Source of the DNA: Cryobacterium arcticum | GTDB lineage: Bacteria > Actinomycetota > Actinomycetes > Actinomycetales > Microbacteriaceae | Reading direction: 5' to 3' | DNA length: 64,000 nucleotides | Assembly (NCBI RefSeq): GCF_001679725.1 | Contig: NZ_CP016282.1 | Location: 3,782,001 to 3,846,000 of the forward strand | Shown here: positions 17,892-62,800 of the stretch, piece by piece | Layout: the number at the start of each line of letters is the position of its first letter | How positions within the stretch are numbered: position 1 is the stretch's first letter | Program-made: the position numbers and the translations under genes | The notes under the pieces: model-generated | What the model was told of the DNA's origin: nothing | What the model saw: only the letters and a program-made list of their open reading frames with translations | Databases searched by the model: none

Positions 17892-17929
17892 CCGCGCCGC
17901 CCTCCCAGTTGCTCCGGCGCGCCACGCGC

Positions 17930-17987
17930 GTCAGGCGCCGCTGCGCGGGTGGCGCGCCAGGCGCGAGCCGGCGCCTGACCCGCGCAG
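17930..17987. terminator. Overlapping inverted repeats between convergent genes
   Basis: GTCAGGCGCCG (17930-17940) pairs with CGGCGCCTGAC (17969-17979). The adjacent CTGCGCGGGT (17941-17950) pairs with ACCCGCGCAG (17978-17987). The order A-B-A'-B' allows alternative hairpins or a pseudoknot. Placement between the convergent SDR and oxidoreductase genes suits a bidirectional terminator. Confidence 0.6.
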
Positions 17988-17996
17988 GGCGACAGG

Positions 17997-19797: not shown

Positions 19798-19859
19798 GCC
19801 CGCGGCCGGAATCGGTCCACGGTGGCTGCGACCCAACCGGGAGCGTGCGTCGCCAGATA

Positions 19860-19903
19860 CCACGATGCGACCCAGTCCGGGAGAGGACTGGGCCGCATCG
19901 TGG
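19860..19903 (-). terminator. Strong terminator hairpin after the MMPL gene
   Basis: The 19-nt arms CCACGATGCGACCCAGTCC (19860-19878) and 19885-19903 pair at 18 of 19 positions around a GGGAGA loop. It lies 24 bp beyond the MMPL stop and separates it from tetR. There is no T tract. Confidence 0.8.
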
Positions 19904-19926
19904 TCAGCTCGCTGCGCTATCGCCGA

Positions 19927-44852: not shown

Positions 44853-44885
44853 GATTTCGCTCCCGGCTGTGGTGGATGGCGTTGC

Positions 44886-44924
44886 TTGTATCTACAACCA
44901 TATCAGAGATGCTTGTAGCTGCAA
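44886..44924. promoter_or_regulatory. Pair of TTGTA-type palindromes (MarR-like operators)
   Basis: TTGTATCTACAA (44886-44897) and TTGTAGCTGCAA (44913-44924) are near-identical 12-bp palindromes with centres 27 bp apart in the divergent VOC/SDR region. They resemble sites for MarR-type quinone sensors. No regulator gene adjoins. Confidence 0.6.
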
Positions 44925-45052
44925 CTAATGTGACAGTCGGCCAGAGTCGTGTCGGAATAGGGCGAGGCCGATCACGGTTTCCTCTATACGAACGCATGCA
45001 GTTCAACGCTGTGCGAAGTACATCTATACAGATCAGATTGGAAGTGGTCATC

Positions 45053-45805
45053 ATGACCAGGTTCGAGAACAAGGTAGCGATCGTCACCGGCGGCGGAAGC
45101 GGTATCGGCGCGGAAATCTCCCGGGAGCTTGCCGCTGAGGGTGCCTCGGTCGTGGTCACCGACATCAAGCTCGAGGCCGCGCAGAGCGTCGTCGACGAGA
45201 TCATCGCCGCCGGCGGGAAGGCAGCCGCCTTCAGCCAGAACACCGCGAAGTGGGAGGACTCCGAAGCGGCCGTGGCGTTCGCCCAGACGACCTTCGGCGC
45301 CCTGCACCTGGCCGTGAACAACGCCGGCATCGGTGCCGCACCGCAGAAGATCGGCGACTACGACATCGCCGCCTGGGACCGCGTGCGCGCGGTGGACCTC
45401 GACGGCGTCTTCTACGGCCTCAAGTTCCAGCTGCCTGCGATCGTCGCCGCCGGCGGCGGCGCCGTGGTGAACATGGCCAGCGTGCTCGGCTCGGTCGGCA
45501 TCGCGGAGAACGCCGCCTACGTCACCAGCAAGCACGCGCTGATCGGCCTCACCAAGGTCGCCGCCCTCGAATACACGGCGGATGGCGTGCGCACGAACGC
45601 CGTCGGACCCGGCTTCATCGACACCCCGCTGGTGCGCTCGAGCCTCTCCCCCGAGGCGCTGACCGCCCTCGAGGCACAGCACGCCTCCCGCCGCCTCGGC
45701 ACCGACAAGGAGGTCGCCGCGCTCACGCTGTTCCTGCTCAGTGACGCCGCCTCCTTCATCTCCGGCAGCTACCACCTCGTCGACGGCGGCTACTCCGCCC
45801 AGTAA
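45053..45805 (+). CDS. Short-chain dehydrogenase/reductase
   Basis: A 250-residue classical SDR starting MTRFENKVAIVTGGGSG after GGAAGTGG. Cofactor motif TGGGSGIG, NNAG, catalytic Ser and YVTSK are present, and VTDIK suggests an acidic residue favouring NAD. The C-terminus SGSYHLVDGGYSAQ is standard. It diverges from the VOC dioxygenase and probably shares the palindromic operators, so a role with aromatic or quinone substrates is possible. Confidence 0.9.
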   Translation: MTRFENKVAIVTGGGSGIGAEISRELAAEGASVVVTDIKLEAAQSVVDEIIAAGGKAAAFSQNTAKWEDSEAAVAFAQTTFGALHLAVNNAGIGAAPQKIGDYDIAAWDRVRAVDLDGVFYGLKFQLPAIVAAGGGAVVNMASVLGSVGIAENAAYVTSKHALIGLTKVAALEYTADGVRTNAVGPGFIDTPLVRSSLSPEALTALEAQHASRRLGTDKEVAALTLFLLSDAASFISGSYHLVDGGYSAQ

Positions 45806-45817
45806 CCCCACGGCGGT

Positions 45818-45878
45818 CGCGAAAGCGGCCATGTGGTTGCTTCGGGTGACCCGAAGTGACCATATGGCCGCTTTCGCG
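45818..45878. repeat. Palindromic 61-bp intergenic element, copy 1
   Basis: Perfect 15-bp outer arms CGCGAAAGCGGCCAT and ATGGCCGCTTTCGCG enclose an inner CTTCGGGT/ACCCGAAG stem. It starts 12 bp past the SDR stop. A second 61-bp copy with 53 identical positions is at 49068-49128. It could act as a terminator here or be a REP-like mobile palindrome. Confidence 0.85.
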
Positions 45879-45937
45879 TGACCGGCGGGGGTACCGCTGC
45901 CCATGGTGAGGAGCGACGTGCCCCGATACCGTGAACC

Positions 45938-46366
45938 ATGATCATCTGGACCCGCTGGGGCATTCTCGTCTTCGTCTTCTTCGGCCTGTCGGTCGGGCTC
46001 GGATTCGCCCTCAAGGGCGTGTTCGCCCCTGCCGTCGGTTCGAACGAGCCGGCCACGAACACATTCCTCGGCACCGGCTTCGTTCTCGGCGCCGCGGCCC
46101 TGTGGGCCTTCTCGAAGTACGTGTTACCGCGCCTCGACAAGGCCCGGCCGTCGTTCGTCTACCAGCAGCTGCCCGAACCCGCAATCAACGAGCGTGGTGT
46201 GAAAGTCACCCACCGACCCGTGGCCGTGGTGAACCAGGAGACCGGCCAGCAGATCTGGACGCGCCCGTCATCGACGTTCTTCTTCATCCCCGTGCGCTTC
46301 TGGCCCTACCCGATCGCCGCGATCGGGGTCGTCAACCTGATCATCGGCATCATCGGACGAGGCTGA
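45938..46366 (+). CDS. Hypothetical membrane protein
   Basis: A 142-residue protein with hydrophobic segments at about residues 5-30, 45-60 and a C-terminal pair, separated by a soluble loop (RPSFVYQQLPEPAINERG). The family is not recognised. TACCGT lies 5 nt before the ATG and no Shine-Dalgarno is present, consistent with a leaderless mRNA. The 3' end overlaps tatB by 17 bp in convergent orientation. Confidence 0.72.
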   Translation: MIIWTRWGILVFVFFGLSVGLGFALKGVFAPAVGSNEPATNTFLGTGFVLGAAALWAFSKYVLPRLDKARPSFVYQQLPEPAINERGVKVTHRPVAVVNQETGQQIWTRPSSTFFFIPVRFWPYPIAAIGVVNLIIGIIGRG

Positions 46367-46835
46367 CCTCCCCGACCGCGACAACCTCGACCGAGCCCGC
46401 GCTCTCCGGGAGGGGAACGGCGTCGGCGGCCGATGCGGCGGCAGGTCGCTCGACGGTTCGCTCGGCGGTTTCGGCCGCGCGGCTGAGCGAGGTGCGCATG
46501 AGCCGGGCAATGCTCGACTCCGGTTGCGGTTGCGGTTGTGGTTCCTGTCGCGGCTGAGGCTCAGGCTGCGTCATGGGGGCGGGCTGCTCTGCGAGCGCCT
46601 CGCGGATGATGCGGCGCGGGTCGTACTGACGCGGGTCGAGCTGTTTCCACTCTGCGATGTCGAAGTCGTCGCCGAGTTCCTGCTTGACCCGGGCCTTGGC
46701 GGCGTCGGTGCGCCCCCGCAGGCTCTGCACGAGCGCCGCCAGCTTGCCGGCATAGAGGGGCAGGCGGTCGGGGCCGAGGACGAAGACGGCGATCATCGCG
46801 ACGACGATGAGTTTCTCAAAGCTGAGGCCGAGCAT
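46350..46835 (-). CDS. tatB: Sec-independent translocase protein TatB
   Basis: A 161-residue single-span protein. The N-terminal helix (LSFEKLIVVAMIAVFVLGPDRLPLYAGKLA) is followed by an amphipathic helix and a long charged tail with a Pro-Gln repeat. The GPDRLP motif distinguishes TatB from TatA. It works with TatC as the receptor for folded twin-arginine precursors. It is the third gene of tatA-tatC-tatB. Confidence 0.9.
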   Translation of the reverse strand: MLGLSFEKLIVVAMIAVFVLGPDRLPLYAGKLAALVQSLRGRTDAAKARVKQELGDDFDIAEWKQLDPRQYDPRRIIREALAEQPAPMTQPEPQPRQEPQPQPQPESSIARLMRTSLSRAAETAERTVERPAAASAADAVPLPESAGSVEVVAVGEVSLVR

Positions 46836-46876
46836 GGGGTCTCCTTGTCTGGCGGGCGTGAGGGCGGTAGGAACGG

Positions 46877-47674
46877 TCAGGCTGTCACGGACGCGCGCGC
46901 TCCGGCAGCGAGTGCGGCAACCCGGCGGGCGGCCCGACGGTCATGGAGTAGGGCGATCCCGGCCGCGGCGGCGAAGAGCGCCGCCATGGGCACCGCGAGC
47001 AGGAACATCGACATGACATCGGCGGCCGGAGTAGCCAGGGCGCAGAACAGCACGATGGCCACCAGCACCACGCGCCAGCCGCGCACGATCGAGATGCCCG
47101 GCAGCACGCCCATGAAGTTCAGGAGCACCACGAACACCGGGAGCACGAACGCCACACCCACCGCGAGCACGAGCTTCATGACGAAGTCGAAGTAGTAGGA
47201 GGCCTCCAGGATGGTGCTGTCCGAGGTGGAGGCGAATCCGGCGAGCAGTTCCACGACGTGCGGGAATAGCCAGAACCCGGCGACGCATCCGGCCAGGAAC
47301 AGCGGGACGGCGGAAGCCACGAACCCGACGGTGTACCGCTTCTCCCGCCGGGTCAGGGCGGGTGCGAAGAAGGCGAAGAGCTGGTACAGCCATACCGGGC
47401 TGGCCAGCACGAGGCCGGCGTAAAGGGCGATCTTCACCTTGAGCTCGAAGGCGCCGCTGACGCTGCCGTAGTTGAGGGTGGCGTTACGCGACTCGGCCAG
47501 GGCCACGACGGGGCCGCGGAGCACGTCGAGGATCAGGTCGGAGAAGAGGTAGCCGGCGACCACGGCGACCGCGACCGCGATGGACGCGCGGAAGAGACGC
47601 GTGCGAGCCTCGATCAGATGCCCAGCGAGGGGCATCAGTCCCGGCTCGGTCGCCGGCGACGTCCGCACGCCCAT
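46877..47674 (-). CDS. tatC: Sec-independent translocase protein TatC
   Basis: A 265-residue six-helix membrane protein, the core receptor of the Tat pathway. The N-terminal PLAGHLIEARTRLFRAS is the signal-binding cytoplasmic region (H-L-E-R), and FAFFAPALTRREKRYTVGFV is the conserved central loop. The start (MGVRTSPATEP) lies 5 bp past the tatA stop. Confidence 0.93.
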   Translation of the reverse strand: MGVRTSPATEPGLMPLAGHLIEARTRLFRASIAVAVAVVAGYLFSDLILDVLRGPVVALAESRNATLNYGSVSGAFELKVKIALYAGLVLASPVWLYQLFAFFAPALTRREKRYTVGFVASAVPLFLAGCVAGFWLFPHVVELLAGFASTSDSTILEASYYFDFVMKLVLAVGVAFVLPVFVVLLNFMGVLPGISIVRGWRVVLVAIVLFCALATPAADVMSMFLLAVPMAALFAAAAGIALLHDRRAARRVAALAAGARASVTA

Positions 47675-47679
47675 CCCGA

Positions 47680-47919
47680 TCAGCGCCCGTCGATCGCGAC
47701 GACCGGCCGCGCCGCCGGTTCGCCGACGGGCTCGTCGGGCTCGACAGCCGTCTCGGCGTCGGCCGGTGTCTTGGCCTCGCGGATCTCTGTCTTGAAGATC
47801 TTCATCGACTGCCCGACACTCTTGGCCAGAGCGGGGAGCTTGGTCGAGCCGAAGAGCAGCAGGATGACGACGAGGATGATGATGGCGTGCCATCCGGTGA
47901 GGTTCTGGAGCAGTCCCAT
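47680..47919 (-). CDS. tatA: Sec-independent translocase protein TatA
   Basis: A 79-residue pore-forming subunit. The transmembrane helix WHAIIILVVILLLFGSTKLP, with FGSTKLP hinge, precedes amphipathic ALAKSVGQSMKIFKTEI. The ATG follows AAGGACCCCGAGCTC. It heads tatA-tatC-tatB, 36 bp downstream of the Tat-type dioxygenase gene, so the substrate and translocase may be co-transcribed. Confidence 0.93.
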   Translation of the reverse strand: MGLLQNLTGWHAIIILVVILLLFGSTKLPALAKSVGQSMKIFKTEIREAKTPADAETAVEPDEPVGEPAARPVVAIDGR

Positions 47920-47955
47920 GAGCTCGGGGTCCTTATCTAAGAGGTATCTGGTCGA

Positions 47956-48948
47956 TTACTGGCTGGGCGGGGTTCCGCCGCCGCCCGCGCCGCCGCTCGG
48001 CGGGGTGCCGCCACCACCGCCGCCGTCGGGCGAGGAGCCCGCGGTGGGTGTGGTGGTGGTGTCCACGCGGGCGGTGAGGTTGACGATGTAGCCGGAGGTG
48101 CTGTCGCCGGTCACGCTGGCGAGCTGGAGGGCCCCGCCGTCGTCACCGAAGACGTTGTCATTGTCGAGGGTGACCTGCGCGAGGTTCGCGGTCGATCCGG
48201 CGTAGGCGGCCAGCTCGTAGACGGTGCTGCTGATGTCTTCGGGCAGCGCCGCCTGCGACGTGGCGATGGCGTTGGCGGCATCCGAGATCGAGTCGATGTC
48301 CGGGTAGACCTCGAAGTGGATGTGCGGCCAGCGTCCCGTGTAACAGGCTGGGTAAATCGAGGTGAAGCTGACCTTCCCGTCGTTGTCGGCGACCTGCACG
48401 CCGCGCAGGTAGGTCTCGTCCTCGATGCCGTCGGAATACATCGAGTACCCACCGGCCGCGTCGCAGTGCCAGACGTACACCGCGGTGTCCGCGAAGGGGG
48501 CATCGTCGTTGTTCATGTCGAGCACCGTGAGGGTGAACGTCATGGGCACACCCTCGGCGGTCAGCCCGCCGCCGATGCTGGAGCGGATGTCGCTGCGCAC
48601 GATGCCGGATTCCTCGAGCACGTTCACCCCGTTGGAGCCGTCGCCCGGGTACGGGCCGGCCGTCTCATCGGGGATCTCGCCGGTGGCGGTCGTGGCGGTG
48701 CCCGTCGATGTGCCCGTCGCTGCGGCCGTCGAGGTGGAGCTGCTCCCGGAGGCATCCGTGGTGCAGGCCGCCAACGCCACGGCGCCCGCGCCGACACCGA
48801 TCAGGCTGAGGACATTGCGGCGGCTGATCAGGGTGCGAATGTCGAAGGCGACGCCATGGTCGACGACCTCGTCGTCGACGCGGTCGAGCAGGCGGCCCTC
48901 GTAGGCGGGGCCGTCCGGGGTTGATTCGGGTTCAGGGATGCGGCTCAT
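47956..48948 (-). CDS. Tat-exported intradiol ring-cleavage dioxygenase-like protein
   Basis: A 330-residue protein of the intradiol dioxygenase (protocatechuate 3,4-dioxygenase) fold. A 43-residue N-region leads to the twin-arginine signal SRRNVLSLIGVGAGAVALAAC, with a Cys fitting a lipobox. DETAGPYPGDG and the ferric ligands in YVWHCDAAGGYS and CYTGRWPHIHFEVYP (Tyr, His-x-His) are visible. The C-terminus is a Gly/Pro/Ser tail. The ATG follows GAGAGGCAGCC. It lies just upstream of tatA, tatC and tatB. A role in extracellular aromatic cleavage is likely but substrate is unknown. Confidence 0.85.
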   Translation of the reverse strand: MSRIPEPESTPDGPAYEGRLLDRVDDEVVDHGVAFDIRTLISRRNVLSLIGVGAGAVALAACTTDASGSSSTSTAAATGTSTGTATTATGEIPDETAGPYPGDGSNGVNVLEESGIVRSDIRSSIGGGLTAEGVPMTFTLTVLDMNNDDAPFADTAVYVWHCDAAGGYSMYSDGIEDETYLRGVQVADNDGKVSFTSIYPACYTGRWPHIHFEVYPDIDSISDAANAIATSQAALPEDISSTVYELAAYAGSTANLAQVTLDNDNVFGDDGGALQLASVTGDSTSGYIVNLTARVDTTTTPTAGSSPDGGGGGGTPPSGGAGGGGTPPSQ

Positions 48949-49067
48949 GGCTGCCTCTCGAATAGGTGGCGGTCGTTCTTGCGTGTCACCTATCCTGGGG
49001 ATCTGTCCAGGCAGCCTGCTATGGCCCGGCTATGCCTTTCCTATGGAGCGTGTCCGCGGAACAGTTG

Positions 49068-49128
49068 CGCGAAAGCGGCCGTGTGGTCGCCTCGGGTGTC
49101 CCCAAGTGACCACACGACCGCTTTCGCG
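49068..49128. repeat. Palindromic 61-bp intergenic element, copy 2
   Basis: Arms 49068-49088 and 49108-49128 pair at 20 of 21 positions (CGCGAAAGCGGCCGTGTGGTC with its complement). It is 53/61 identical to copy 1. It lies 35 bp past the metQ stop and 120 bp upstream of the dioxygenase start. Confidence 0.85.
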
Positions 49129-49162: not shown

Positions 49163-50074
49163 TTATTTCGCGTCGATGGGGAGCAGGATGCCCTTCACGG
49201 TGGGGTCGGTGGCCAGGAACTCCTGCACCGCCGGGTCCTTGAAGGCGGCGACGAGGTTCTTGATGTTCTCGGTGTCGGCGAAGTCGCTGCCGATGGTGAG
49301 CTGGCCGGCGAACTCGTCGGGCGCGGCCGGGGCGAAGATCTGCTGCTCGATCGGGATGCTCGCGGCCAGGTAGTACTCGGTGTAGCCGGCCGCGAGGTCG
49401 AGGTCGGGCAGGGCGCGGGACTGCGCGGCGAAGTCGAGCAGGGTGAACTTCAGGTTCTTCGGGTTGGTGGCGATGTCGTCCTGGGTGGCGGTGCCGGCGG
49501 TGGTGCCGTCCTTCAACGTGATGAGTCCGGCCTCCTGCAGCAGCCACAGGCCCTGGGCCTCGTTGGCGGGATCGGAGTACAGCGACACGGTACCGCCGTC
49601 GGGCACCTGGTCGACGCTGGTGTACTTGTCGCTCCACAGCCCGAAGCCCCAGCGGAACACCGGGGTGGCGGCGGTTTCCTTGAAGTCGGGGTTGGACTCG
49701 AGAACCTGGCTGAGCCAGAGCTTGTGCTGGTAGACCGTGCCGGCTACCTCGCCCTCGCTCACGGCGCGGTTGATGGTGTTGCTGTCGGAGAGGCCCTTGA
49801 ACTTCACGGTGATGCCGTACTTGGGCGCGACCTCCTCGGCGACGAAGTTGACCAGTGCCTGCTCGGCGGCGTTGCCCTCGGCGGTGGCGACGATGAGGGT
49901 GGCGCCCTCGGTGGCGTTGGCGGAGGTGGGCGGGTTGAGCAGCGGGACGGTGATCGCCGCGGCGGCGCCGACGACCACGACGGCGATACCGGCGACCCAG
50001 GGCCAGCGGCGGCGCTTCTTGAGTGCGAAGCCGTGCGGCTCGGCGGCGGGCGTGGAGGAGGTGGGAGTAGACAT
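49163..50074 (-). CDS. metQ: MetQ/NlpA family substrate-binding protein, membrane anchored
   Basis: A 303-residue NlpA-type binding protein for methionine or a related sulfur compound. SIAAS-type family features include TLIVATAEGNAAEQALVNFV, FKGLSDSNTINRAVSEGEV and AGYTEYYLAASI. Instead of a lipobox it has a cytoplasmic KKRRR stretch and one helix (WVAGIAVVVVGAAAAITV), so it appears to be anchored by the helix or secreted. The start follows GAAGGAAACCCC. It is the last gene of the monooxygenase-metN-metI-metQ unit. Confidence 0.88.
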   Translation of the reverse strand: MSTPTSSTPAAEPHGFALKKRRRWPWVAGIAVVVVGAAAAITVPLLNPPTSANATEGATLIVATAEGNAAEQALVNFVAEEVAPKYGITVKFKGLSDSNTINRAVSEGEVAGTVYQHKLWLSQVLESNPDFKETAATPVFRWGFGLWSDKYTSVDQVPDGGTVSLYSDPANEAQGLWLLQEAGLITLKDGTTAGTATQDDIATNPKNLKFTLLDFAAQSRALPDLDLAAGYTEYYLAASIPIEQQIFAPAAPDEFAGQLTIGSDFADTENIKNLVAAFKDPAVQEFLATDPTVKGILLPIDAK

Positions 50075-58192: not shown

Positions 58193-59734
58193 ATGGCCCA
58201 GTCATCCGCTTCGAATGCCACGCCCGCAGCGGCTCAGAGCGCCGGCGGTCTCTCCGCCAAGGGGCTCAGCGCCGGTTCGGTGGGCCTGCTCGGCGCCACC
58301 GTTATCGGCATCTCCTGCATTGCCCCGGCCTACACGCTCACGGCCTCGCTCGGCCCAACGGTCGCGGCGGTGGGCACCCAGATGCCGGGCATCTTCATGG
58401 TCGGGTTCATCCCGATGCTGCTCGTGGCGCTCGGCTACCGTGAGCTCAACAACTCCATGCCGGATGCCGGCACCTCCTTCACCTGGGCGACGCGAGCGTT
58501 CGGCCCCTGGCTGGGCTGGATGGGCGGCTGGGGCCTGATCGTGGCCACCGTGGTGGTGCTCTCGAACTTGGCCGGGGTGGCGGTGGACTTCTTCTACCTC
58601 ATGCTCGCCCAGTTGTTCGGTAACCCGGATCTGGCCGACCTGGCCGCGAACGTGTGGATCAACATCTTCACCTGTCTGGTCTTCATGGTGTTGGCCTGTT
58701 ATGTCTCCTATCGGGGCATGGAGACCACCAAGATGGTGCAGTACGTGCTCGTGGCGTTCCAACTCCTCGTGCTGATCTGGTTCAGCGTGGCCGCGTTGGT
58801 GCACTTCGCCGACGGCACCGCCTTCGACGCGCTCGGCTTCAGCGCCAGCTGGTTCAACCCGTTCCTCACCCCGTCGTTCTCCGCGTTCGCCGCGGGGGTG
58901 TCGCTGTCGATCTTCATCTACTGGGGCTGGGACGTGACCCTCACCATGAACGAGGAGACCAAGGACCCGGAGCGCACCCCTGGACGGGCGGCCACCCTCA
59001 CGGTGGGCATCATCTTCGTGCTGTACATCCTGGTCTCGGTCTCGGCGCTGATGTTCTCCGGCGTCGGAACCGGCGAGCTGGGCCTCGGTAACGAGGACAT
59101 CCAGGGCAACGTCTTCGCGGCGCTGGCCGGGCCGGTGATGGGCCCGTTCGCGATCCTGATGTCGCTGGCCGTGCTGTCCAGCTCGGCCGCGTCGCTGCAG
59201 TCCACCTTTGTGGGGCCGGCGCGCACCATGCTCTCGATGGGCCACTACCGGGCCTTCCCCAAGCGCTTTGCGGCGATCAGCCCGCGGTTCAGGTCGCCGG
59301 GCTTCGCCACGGTGATCGCCGGGGTCGTGGCGTGGGTCTTCTACGCGGTGATGCGGGTGCTCAGCACGGATGTGCTCACCGACACCATCCTCACCCTGGG
59401 CATCATGATCTGCTTCTACTACGGCGTGACGGCGTTCGCCTGTGTCTGGTTCTTCCGCCGGGAGGTGTTCTCCAGCACCCGGGCGTTCCTGCTCAAGCTG
59501 CTTGCGCCGCTCATCGGCGGCATCATCCTGGCCGTGATCTTCGCCACCACCCTGATCGACAGCACCAACCCCGAGTACGGCAGCGGGTCGGAGATCGGCG
59601 GCGTCGGCCTGGTCTTCATCCTGGCGATGGTGCTCTTCATCGCCGGCATCGTGCTGATGTTCATCATGCGGGCCGTCGACCCGGCGTTCTTCCAGGGCAA
59701 GACCCTCACGAAGGGCACCTCGCGCGACACCTGA
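58193..59734 (+). CDS. APC family amino acid/amine permease
   Basis: A 513-residue transporter with 12 predicted helices. LSAGSVGLLGATVIGISCIA is the helix-1 region with the conserved Gly-rich unwound segment, and FIYWGWDVTLTMNEETKDP is typical of helix 6-7 in amine permeases. The ATG follows AAAGGACGAG. It closes the ALDH-amine oxidase-USP operon and probably imports the amine substrate. Confidence 0.9.
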   Translation: MAQSSASNATPAAAQSAGGLSAKGLSAGSVGLLGATVIGISCIAPAYTLTASLGPTVAAVGTQMPGIFMVGFIPMLLVALGYRELNNSMPDAGTSFTWATRAFGPWLGWMGGWGLIVATVVVLSNLAGVAVDFFYLMLAQLFGNPDLADLAANVWINIFTCLVFMVLACYVSYRGMETTKMVQYVLVAFQLLVLIWFSVAALVHFADGTAFDALGFSASWFNPFLTPSFSAFAAGVSLSIFIYWGWDVTLTMNEETKDPERTPGRAATLTVGIIFVLYILVSVSALMFSGVGTGELGLGNEDIQGNVFAALAGPVMGPFAILMSLAVLSSSAASLQSTFVGPARTMLSMGHYRAFPKRFAAISPRFRSPGFATVIAGVVAWVFYAVMRVLSTDVLTDTILTLGIMICFYYGVTAFACVWFFRREVFSSTRAFLLKLLAPLIGGIILAVIFATTLIDSTNPEYGSGSEIGGVGLVFILAMVLFIAGIVLMFIMRAVDPAFFQGKTLTKGTSRDT

Positions 59735-59743
59735 CACGCCACT

Positions 59744-59773
59744 CGGGCCCCGCCACATGCGCGACGGGACCCG
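59744..59773. terminator. Weak hairpin between convergent genes
   Basis: CGGGCCCCGCC and the following GACGGGACCCG pair at 10 of 13 positions around ATGC, between the convergent permease and phosphatase genes. A terminator is plausible but the stem is imperfect. Confidence 0.4.
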
Positions 59774-59815
59774 TGTTCGGTGTCGAATGTTCCGTGTTGA
59801 CCGGGACCGGCCGGG

Positions 59816-62800
59816 CTACTTCTCCGACCGGTGCAGAGCGATCAGGCCGGTGGGGAACCGGTCCCGGGCGGAGACGTAGACCACGCCCTTCGCCGCATCC
59901 ACCGAGACGCCGTAGACCTTGTTGCCGTAGGCGGTCTTCGGGTAGTCCTTGATGGTCGTGAGGTCGGTGCTGGAGAGCACCAGCACACCACTGGCATCGA
60001 ACGCATCGCTCTGGTGCCCCAGGTAGAGGCGCTTGGCGATCGGGTCGACCGCGACGCTGCGCAGGTCGGGCGCGGCCGACGTCAGCACCTCGGCTTCCAC
60101 CGTGAACGTAGCCGGGTCGTACACCCGCACGGATGCCGTGGCTCCGGACACGTCGGAGTTGCTGACGTACACCCGCTGGGCGACCGGGTCCCAGGCAATG
60201 CCGTGTGAGCGCCAGTTGGCGCCGTCCGTCGTCACCGTCTGGATCAGGGCGCCCGTGCTGGCGTCCATGACGTCGAACCCGGTTCCACGGGTGGTGCCGA
60301 AGACCCGCCCGTTGGCGAGGTCGACGTCCAGGCCGCGCACGTTCCCGGAGAACGCGAACGGTCCGCGCACCACACTGTCGTCGCTCAGTTTCACGACGGC
60401 CCAGGCGGCACCGTAGGCGACGTAGAGCTCGTCCTTCGCGGTGTCGATGGCCACGTCACGCACTCCCTCGGCGGTGCCGCCCGGGATGAGGTGCGTCGCC
60501 ACGACGGTGTCGGTGACCGGGTCGATCTCCAGCACCCGCGCCGGGCGCTGCTCGTTGCCCACGAACAGGTGCCCGGTGTCGGGGTCGACGACCGAGCCGA
60601 CCGGCTTGGTGTCGGCGTCGGGGTTGGCGGCCGCGGAAGCGATCGCGGTGAGGGCGACCGGGGTGTAGTCCAGCCCGGACGGCGCCCCAGGCTCGGTCGG
60701 GTCCGTCGGGTCCGTCGGGTCCGTCGGGTCCGTCGGATCGGTGGGATCGGTCGGGTCCGTCGGATCGGTCGGGTCCGTCGGGTCCGTGGGGTCGGTCGGG
60801 GTGGCGGCACCGACGCGCTGCGACACCGTGACGGCCACGGCGTCGAGTTCGGAGCCGGGCGGGTTGAGCCGGAAGTCGCGGTTGGACACGAAGACCCGCT
60901 GGGTCTCCTCGTCCACCGAGATGCCGTAGCCGTCCTTACCGAAGGCCGGGTCGGCCTTGTCGACCAGCAGTTCGCCGGTCTTCGGGTCGTGCACGCTGAA
61001 CCCGCCGGACCCGGCACCGGTTCCCGTGTATCCCACGTAGAGCAGCCCGTTGGTCGAGTCCGCGTCGAGTTGACGCGGGCTGGCCCGGCTGGTCTTCTCC
61101 CAGAGCGAGACGAAGCCGTTGTCCACGTCGAACGCCTCGATGTTGACCGCGTCCGGCACATCACTGAAGTACACCGTGGAAACGATCCCGTTGGCCGGGT
61201 CGGCCGCCACGTAGTACGAGTCGGCCGTGCCGTCGATGACACCGACCGACTCACCGGTCACCGCGTCGAGCACCTCGATACCTCGGGACGGAATCGCCCC
61301 ATAGACGTAACCGCGCACCGGGTCGACGTCGATCGACCGGTTCGACTCGATGAACGGGAACGGGCCCCGCACGATCTGGCCGAACGTGGCATCCGCGATC
61401 GACACCACCACCCAATTGCGGTTCTGTTGCCCCACATAAAGCAACTCGTTCGCGTCGTCGATGCCCAGGTCGCGGATATTCTCCGGCAGGGTCATCTGCC
61501 GGGTCACCTCGTCGGTGTCCGCATCCAACTCGAAGATCGTCCGGCCGTTCTGGTCACCCAGATACAGGCGGTCCTTCTCCTGCGAGAACGCCGACCCGGC
61601 CGGCAGCTTCGCATTGGTCTTGTTGACCGAGTCGAGGCTGGCGACCTGGGTGAAGTCCAGCGTCTCGTCCAGGACACGCTCGCTGATGGTCACGGCCATC
61701 GCGTCCAGTTCGGAGCCGGGCGGGTTGAGCCTGAAGTCGCGGTTGGACACGAAGACCCGCTGGGTCTCCTCGTCCACCGAGATTCCGTAGCCGTCCTTGC
61801 CATAGGAGGGATCCGCGAAGTCGCCCAGGAGGGCGCCGGTCTTGGGGTCGTGCACCGAGAAGCCGCCTGAACCCGCGGCCGTGCCGGTGTAACCCACGTA
61901 GAGCAGTCCGTTTGTCGAGTCCGCGTCCAGCTGACGCGGGCTGGCCCGGCTGGTCTTCTCCCACAGCGACACGAAGCCGTTGTCCACGTCGAACGCCTCG
62001 ATGTTGACTGCATCCGGCACATCACTGAAGTACACCGTCGAGACGATCCCGTTGGCCGGGTCCGCCGCCACGTAGTACGAGTCGGCCGTGCCGTCGATGA
62101 CACCGACCGACTCACCGGTCACCGCGTCGAGCACCTCGATACCTCGGGACGGAATCGCCCCATAGACGTAACCGCGCACCGGGTCGACGTCGATCGACCG
62201 GTTCGACTCGATGAACGGGAACGGGCCCCGCACGATCTGGCCGAACGTGGCATCCGCGATCGACACCACCACCCAATTGCGGTTCTGTTGCCCCACATAA
62301 AGCAACTCGTTCGCGTCGTCGATGCCCAGGTCGCGGATATTCTCCGGCAGAGTCATCTGCCGGGTCACCTCGTCGGTGTCCGCATCCAACTCGAAGATCG
62401 TCCGGCCGTTCTGGTCACCCAGATACAGGCGGTCCTTCTCCTGCGAGAACGCCGACCCGGCCGGCAGCTTCGCATTGGTCTTGTTCACCGAATCGAGTCC
62501 GCCGACGACCGTGTAGTCCACGGATGCGACGGGTTCGCCGGGGTCGGTGGGGTCGGTTCCGGGGTCGGGGTTCGGGTTGCAGCCCAGGCACGGCTGACCG
62601 GTTCCGGGGTCGATGACCTGCGGAGCGGTGTCGTCGGTGACGGCCTTGCCCGCGTCGTTCTTCACGATGGTGAGCCCGTCGTAGTACTCGCCGTCGGCGG
62701 TGCGGGACTCGTACCGCAGTTCGTCGCCGGAGACGTCGATCAGCTGGTAGAGCTCGATTCCACCGCCGAGCTTCTTCAGCGTGGCGCCGTTCTCGGTCCA

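Follow-up and report, generated by a model that had tools for sequence, protein, structure and literature searches.

What kind of element are two similar 61-bp palindromes lying in intergenic DNA of Cryobacterium arcticum, and what keeps them there? Both were found in a window of 64,000 nucleotides (the whole stretch of DNA that was analysed), which corresponds to C1:3782001-3846000 of a genome of 4.35 Mb in three contigs (G000). The analysis indicates that they probably serve as target palindromes in a repeat system, selfish or domesticated, that has two parts; the other part would be a nuclease gene bracketed by palindromes of the same family, and the nuclease would spread or maintain the palindromes.

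The two palindromes belong to a dispersed family

A preliminary description of this DNA had pointed to two similar 61-mers of equal length, folding end to end and located in intergenic DNA near gene ends, and in these respects it was borne out. The copies are 87% identical across the 61 positions. Copy 1 folds with -56.0 kcal/mol (z -12.2, plus strand) and copy 2 with -53.7 (z -11.4, minus strand) or -45.3 (z -7.9, plus strand), far better than dinucleotide-preserving shuffles. Copy 1 begins 13 bp past the stop of the plus-strand gene ending at 45805, and copy 2 lies 35 bp past the stop of the minus-strand gene whose low end is at 49163, before the start of the next minus-strand gene. Both are among the 7 inverted repeats of at least 18 nt with arms within 60 bp in the window, and they were the two strongest of the 12 palindromes found when it was scanned. 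Rfam at gathering thresholds gave 0 matches in the window.

The family is not confined to these two copies, a result that would have spoken against it. A search with copy 1 returned at least 13 palindromic copies in the C. arcticum genome, starting on C1 at 662736, 1283464, 2302718, 2529045, 2992543, 3553791, 3596680, 3596772, 3597828, 3597900, 3827818, 3831068 and 4013775 (one extra place listed by the covariance model, 2491590, was left out of this set). The covariance-model search of the same genome gave 33 strand-wise matches, which means that there are more copies than 13. The majority consensus was nCGCGAAAGCGGTCGTGTGGTTGCCTCAGnnnGCTGAGGTGACCAnnTGGCCGCTTTCGCG. The model R1, built from these own-genome copies, matched in 49 of 57 Cryobacterium genomes, with strand-wise counts on both strands of up to 95 per genome; as at most 95 candidates were scored in each, the high counts are lower bounds. 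The earlier suggestion of an undescribed family resembling repetitive extragenic palindromes (REPs) or miniature inverted-repeat transposable elements (MITEs) was therefore right as to the kind of element, though not as to the enzyme expected with it (see below). The window copies appear to be solitary, non-autonomous-looking members of this family.

In the alignment of 13 copies, the outer arm was almost invariant and the inner arm variable yet mostly paired. As many as 88.4% of cells were paired, a value reached in 2 of 500 shuffles, and sliding the partners by 1-3 columns lowered pairing to 37-47%. The covariation score was 0.242 versus 0.184 in shuffled alignments (reached by 1/500), with 16 two-sided cells versus 9.4 (17/500) and 24 further pair types versus 21.2 (40/500). 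The excess of paired substitutions looked for in additional copies was thus seen in pairing, covariation score and two-sided cells, but not in the number of pairs with two-sided change (7 versus 6.0, 185/500). Similarly, the three compensatory changes proposed between copies 1 and 2 stood for pair 14/48, altered on both sides, but 16/46 and 21/41 only passed from G-T wobbles in copy 1 to G-C in copy 2. Overall, these figures lend moderate support to conservation of the hairpin.

A probable two-domain nuclease is encoded between palindromes

Four of the 13 copies flank one gene, two per side, about 184 kb left of the window (G000:C1:3596899-3597813), encoding a protein of 304 aa. In its last quarter, Pfam matched DUF559 above and MTES_1575 below the cut-off; the latter domain is classed as a Vsr-family REase in a part of PMC3710099. 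Residues 2-192 were predicted to adopt an AbiEi-like fold and the C-terminal domain a fold like that of Vsr and the EDxHD homing endonucleases. PADLOC AbiEi profiles matched 2 of 3 proteins, one of them weakly. The catalytic residues E, D, H and D, in that order, were invariant in 68/68 proteins, so cutting has probably been selected. With this predicted fold and these residues, the nuclease is a member of the Vsr/EDxHD superfamily; the bracketed gene probably encodes a DNA-cutting enzyme whose AbiEi-like half probably binds DNA.

Homologues were detected in 56 of the 57 genomes of the genus at E <= 1e-3 and relatives in 206 of 296 genomes of the class at E <= 1e-10, annotated as hypothetical protein, DUF559 domain-containing protein or very-short-patch-repair endonuclease. 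Five of the nuclease genes (L107, L279, L311, L334 and L343), several of them still palindrome-flanked, have an internal stop codon, which suggests gene decay. No introns or inteins were noticed around the gene of C. arcticum, in the course of work that included no search aimed at them.

No sign was seen of the partner suggested earlier, a REP-associated tyrosine transposase (RAYT): a search with Y1_Tnp (PF01797) gave 0 matches in the C. arcticum genome, the control being positive in 5 of 14 genomes, E. coli included, and it was the DUF559/Vsr-like nuclease gene that proved to be bracketed instead. Classical REPs moved by a RAYT (Y1/HUH), or MITEs of an insertion sequence, are an extremely unlikely identity for these elements, which are indeed palindromic, intergenic, dispersed and sometimes arranged in pairs like those of bacterial interspersed mosaic elements (BIMEs), but carry the GTAG/CGTC tag at the base in just 2 of 13 copies and bracket a nuclease of another fold.

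Association of nuclease genes and palindromes across genomes

Three overlapping sets of loci were compared: 90 Cryobacterium loci (the 30 best homologues from 30 genomes and 60 more taken nearly in list order, down to ~32% identity), 80 named loci (the best 80 of at least 577 confirmed, 21 of them Cryobacterium shared with the first set) and 30 class-wide best-match loci, which include the C. arcticum gene and one more from Cryobacterium. Among the 30 best homologues of the genus, R1-family palindromes were present at 23 loci, and the remaining 7 had palindromes of other sequence, detected by a model-free scan. Across the 90 loci the palindromes varied by gene clade (e.g., GCGAAAGCGGYC, CGCGAGAGTGCACTTTT, GCGCAAAAAGTGCCCGATTG, CGCGAAACCGCAGTTGTGC, CGAACTGTGAGTTAAGCACC, TGAGTTGCGGAGAAAGCACC and TCAGTAGACAA). 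At least one side carried a strong palindrome close to the gene in 71/90 Cryobacterium, 66/80 named and 26/30 class-wide loci, and both sides in 36/90, 37/80 and 12/30, respectively. For the 59 named loci outside Cryobacterium (Agromyces, Agreia, Herbiconiux, Leifsonia, Curtobacterium, Rathayibacter, Subtercola, Agrococcus and more), the corresponding numbers were 48 and 28.

Palindromes were dense within 200 bp of the gene and sparse beyond: 118 in 46.6 kb versus 42 in 218.7 kb for Cryobacterium (5 in 82.4 kb inside genes), 107 in 51.5 kb versus 40 in 249.4 kb for the named loci and 42 in 19.8 kb versus 11 in 70.2 kb class-wide, ratios that are inflated because the flanks are intergenic and the outer zone mostly coding. 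The 115 kb of 29 comparison loci, which surround other genes, held 4 palindromes (0.035 per kb); over the whole window the density was 0.19 per kb. A test independent of this effect is given by the sequences themselves. The likeness of palindromes on the two sides of the same gene was 0.54 versus 0.10 between loci, and palindrome similarity tracked protein similarity (Mantel rho 0.51, 0/500 permutations; kinship of the genomes uncorrected). Similar palindromes were found in a fraction of 0.88 of the locus pairs with more than 80% protein identity, in 0.08 of those at 60-80% and in 0.00 of those below 60%. The association of nuclease genes and palindromes is well supported.

Palindrome number also varied with the gene. 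The median count of R1 matches was 71 in the 7 genomes with a gene at least 84% identical, 18 in the 22 genomes with a 53-64% identical gene and 7 in the other 28, two of which (G052 and G055) have matches of 54-55% that cover the protein only in part (p 2.8e-5, with kinship uncorrected and a model built from own-genome copies). The arm GCGCAAAAAGTGCCCGATTG was present in 7 of 57 genomes (reversed control 0), with 27 occurrences in G018, 15 in G010, 6 each in G026 and G034, 5 in G047 and 1 each in G033 and G049; G018, G010 and G026 carry a nuclease gene bracketed by the GCGCAAAAAGTGCCCGATTG palindrome.

These data also bear on the idea that the palindromes owe their spread to some other enzyme, so far unrecognised, and that the nuclease gene is cargo caught between two copies. 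The 2+2 bracketing does resemble a composite element, and many R1 matches occur without a close gene, 20 in G041 and 53 in G042 (best gene 43-44% identical), G047 being a further case. Cargo would nevertheless be very improbable, because members of one gene family have unrelated palindromes around them in different genera and the palindrome sequence follows the protein.

Two further observations were made at these loci. In G018 (L113 3541-3607) and G010 (L117 3548-3614), the family is represented by a third palindrome ~1.1 kb past the gene. Family f26, from large-genome actinobacteria, has GTTGATCATGG-type palindromes around its nuclease genes (L373, L376, L378, L381, L383, L384, L388 and L392).

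Turnover at orthologous sites

At the place orthologous to that of copy 2, a model match was found in G044 (G044:C1:3814590-3814651). Six other loci with the neighbour gene of copy 2 had no such palindrome: L199 (G041), L200 (G031), L201 (G017), L202 (G016), L204 (G018) and L205 (G046), L200 having an unlike palindrome (score 19.0) ~200 bp off. The C. arcticum site at 2302718, 9 bp past a gene end, has a palindrome in 7 of 10 relatives (G044, G017, G038, G016, G004, G056 and G035), none in G042 and another repeat in G041 and G031. This other dispersed repeat, of the type GTCGAGC..TGTCGAGACC with many match places, occupies the site in L257 (G041) and L258 (G031) and also lies beside one C. arcticum palindrome (G000:C1 ~1283527-1283657, L018).

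A hairpin kept so close to a gene end would suit repeated intergenic terminators or mRNA 3'-end hairpins, of which the nuclease gene merely has two. All 9 solitary copies in the C. arcticum genome likewise follow at least one gene end, and in five co-directional copies the transcribed strand shows 13 G-U versus 4 A-C mismatches. We regard this explanation as unlikely, since no U-tract follows either window copy, two of the bracketing copies sit upstream of the nuclease gene, in a gap between divergent genes, and palindromes were rare at the comparison loci around other genes; nor would one expect terminators to be alike on either side of a gene, to differ between clades or to track the sequence of one gene family. 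Some of the copies may nevertheless act as terminators or RNA elements.

For G018, 11 sites were queried in 10 genomes and 7 could be aligned, namely those with a match running across the site. Each of the 7 has a palindrome-free relative (G019, G033, G047, G036, G036 with a remnant in G014, G047 and G026, respectively), and 3 of them are occupied in other species by a palindrome from another family. At shared sites in G005, G034 and G049, the palindrome resembles those next to the nuclease gene of the same genome (the best match, a tie, or second only to a sister genome). Such a pattern reflects either repeated hits at the same spots or rewriting of existing palindromes.

The palindromes might alternatively be binding sites of the AbiEi-like domain (operators or landmarks) that serve autoregulation, regulation, chromosome organisation or defence and do not move. 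The fold predicted for residues 2-192, the PADLOC matches, the coevolution of palindrome and protein sequences and the binding of inverted repeats by AbiEi, given in a part of PMC7319586, all fit this. It is rather unlikely, however, as the invariant catalytic residues point to cutting, and the presence or absence of palindromes and the different families at one site in close species suit turnover better.

The arms and loops of the palindromes behaved differently. Among 15 GCGCAAAAAGTGCCCGATTG-family copies in G018, the arms were near-identical and the 7-nt loops mostly different, matching at 6 or 7 positions, in one orientation or the other, in 6 of 105 pairs; three of the six pairs were formed by the three copies at the gene. 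Of six orthologous pairs, four had loops matching at 6-7 positions (the first L396 site in G047, the second in G047 and, inverted, in G010, and L402/L410) and two at 4 (L401/L413 and L403/L412). Orthology was taken from the flanks, by eye for L402/L410 and L401/L413, and a place in G026 where the outer flanks of the two L396 sites are joined did not enter the count. Judged by its asymmetric loop, the palindrome is inverted between G018 and G010 at one orthologous site (L396 979-1041; L464 from 790). The loop looks like an inherited locus tag and the arms like a sequence shared within the genome, which, from small numbers, suggests arm homogenisation.

Neighbourhood of the window copies

The features next to the two copies, the block that separates them and the weaker palindromes of the window are listed in Table 1. 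The tat-like block is missing in G041, where its flanking genes are adjacent, and the stretch is kept in G004 and G044; the window palindromes are thus close to a rearranged segment.

Table 1. Coordinates of palindromes and neighbouring features in the window (open reading frame, ORF; short-chain dehydrogenase, SDR).
Feature	Position	Strand	Remarks
Palindrome copy 1	45818..45878 (G000:C1:3827818-3827878)	.	61 bp; covariance-model match E 2.3e-16
Palindrome copy 2	49068..49128 (G000:C1:3831068-3831128)	.	61 bp; covariance-model match E 8.4e-15
ORF, presumably SDR-like from its sequence	44876..45805	+	true start possibly further in; copy 1 after its stop
ORF, 142 aa	45938..46366	+	3' of copy 1
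ORF, 330 aa	47956..48948	-	start 120 bp left of copy 2
ORF, 303 aa, presumably substrate-binding-lipoprotein-like	49163..50074	-	copy 2 beyond its stop
Block taken from its sequences to be tatB/tatC/tatA-like	46350-47919		separates the two palindromes
Further palindrome	17915-17994		score within ~19-22
Further palindrome	19859-19904		score within ~19-22
Further palindrome	59721-59796		score within ~19-22
Further palindrome	60707-60786		score within ~19-22

Proposed mechanism

In the two-part system that we consider probable, the first part would be the chromosomal gene for the nuclease, with its AbiEi-like half and Vsr/EDxHD-type domain, bracketed by palindromes, and the second the solitary copies of the same palindrome scattered in intergenic DNA. 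A dimer of the nuclease would recognise the ~60-bp inverted repeat, one AbiEi-like domain per arm, and cut or nick it, either near its centre or where the arms mismatch. With another copy or the opposite arm as template, repair could then place the palindrome elsewhere and rewrite and perfect existing copies, and the palindromes would thereby follow the specificity of the resident nuclease. Perfecting of the arms alone would give the paired changes seen between copies 1 and 2.

Several observations weigh against this reading. No palindrome was found, by the criteria used, in 19/90, 14/80 and 4/30 loci, the density ratios are inflated as described, and the solitary copies come after gene ends as terminators would. 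In six genomes (G000, G031, G035, G056, G017 and G044), the gene lies 34-44 kb from one orthologous palindrome site, which suggests vertical inheritance of a gene that itself moves little. Several of the 'empty' sites retain one TCGCG-like remnant and may be deletions, loss by slippage between CGCG ends being as possible as a pre-insertion state. At the 7 aligned sites with an absent copy, no target-site duplication was readable, and neither a duplication nor an exact boundary could be fixed because the intergenic flanks have diverged. Shared-site palindromes of G036, G014 (each compared with one gene locus), G016 and G041 are unlike those beside the examined gene loci, and one of the two in G010 is unlike the gene-side ones (0.25). 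Finally, G047 is an orphan, with a G018-type palindrome and weak gene matches only (best E 2.2e-7), as expected after gene loss.

A broader version of the proposal is put forward tentatively, as a possibility that we would not yet call probable: a class-wide repeat system of Actinomycetes with a RAYT-independent origin, in which an AbiEi-Vsr fusion nuclease homes to its own ~60-bp palindromes and, through cutting and templated repair, both spreads them and rewrites those already present. Such a system would explain near-identical arms within a genome that match its resident nuclease, different palindromes at the same orthologous site between species and the locus-specific, inherited and once-inverted 7-nt loop.

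Relation to known systems and significance

The closest anatomical parallel is that of REPs and RAYTs (TnpA-REP, REPtrons), for which a part of PMC2817692 gives bracketing, dispersed cognate palindromes, coevolution and gene-linked abundance as features. Here, too, a gene is bracketed by one palindrome family (on both sides in just 36/90 and 37/80 loci), cognate palindromes are dispersed intergenically, enzyme and palindrome coevolve and abundance is linked to the gene. The enzyme, however, is an AbiEi-like plus Vsr/EDxHD nuclease and not Y1/HUH, the palindromes are ~60 bp long compared with the 20-40 bp given for REPs in a part of PMC3733652, and the GTAG/CGTC tag at the hairpin foot is missing in 11/13 copies. 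Because Y1_Tnp is absent from the genome and the tag from these 11 copies, the system is considered to have REP/RAYT-like anatomy with a non-homologous enzyme and not to be a REP/RAYT member.

With the EDxHD homing endonuclease I-Bth0305I and with Vsr, the nuclease shares the predicted catalytic fold and the ordered E, D, H and D residues; the target size proposed for it, ~60 bp, is like that of I-Bth0305I, reported to be near 60 bp. It differs from both in its AbiEi-like N-terminal half and in a proposed target that is a repeated palindrome and not one conserved gene. The predicted fold of that half recalls the AbiEi antitoxins of type IV toxin-antitoxin systems, for which inverted-repeat binding is reported, but here a nuclease domain is fused and the gene is palindrome-bracketed. 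Like MITEs, the palindromes are short, dispersed, non-autonomous-looking inverted repeats; a target-site duplication was not readable at the aligned sites. A search of the open literature found nothing comparable to the combination of palindrome and AbiEi-Vsr nuclease.

The pairing of nuclease and palindrome suggests that the two act together, in a way so far unrecognised, to spread or maintain genome repeats. The link to cognate palindromes gives proteins named DUF559 or very-short-patch-repair a testable function, and it would explain a body of actinobacterial intergenic hairpins that are easily taken for terminators. The broad set of enzyme-palindrome pairs offers natural data for reading nuclease specificity. 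The system would also be a second, non-homologous answer to the question raised by RAYTs and REPs, namely how bacterial palindromic repeats arise, persist and come to match an enzyme.

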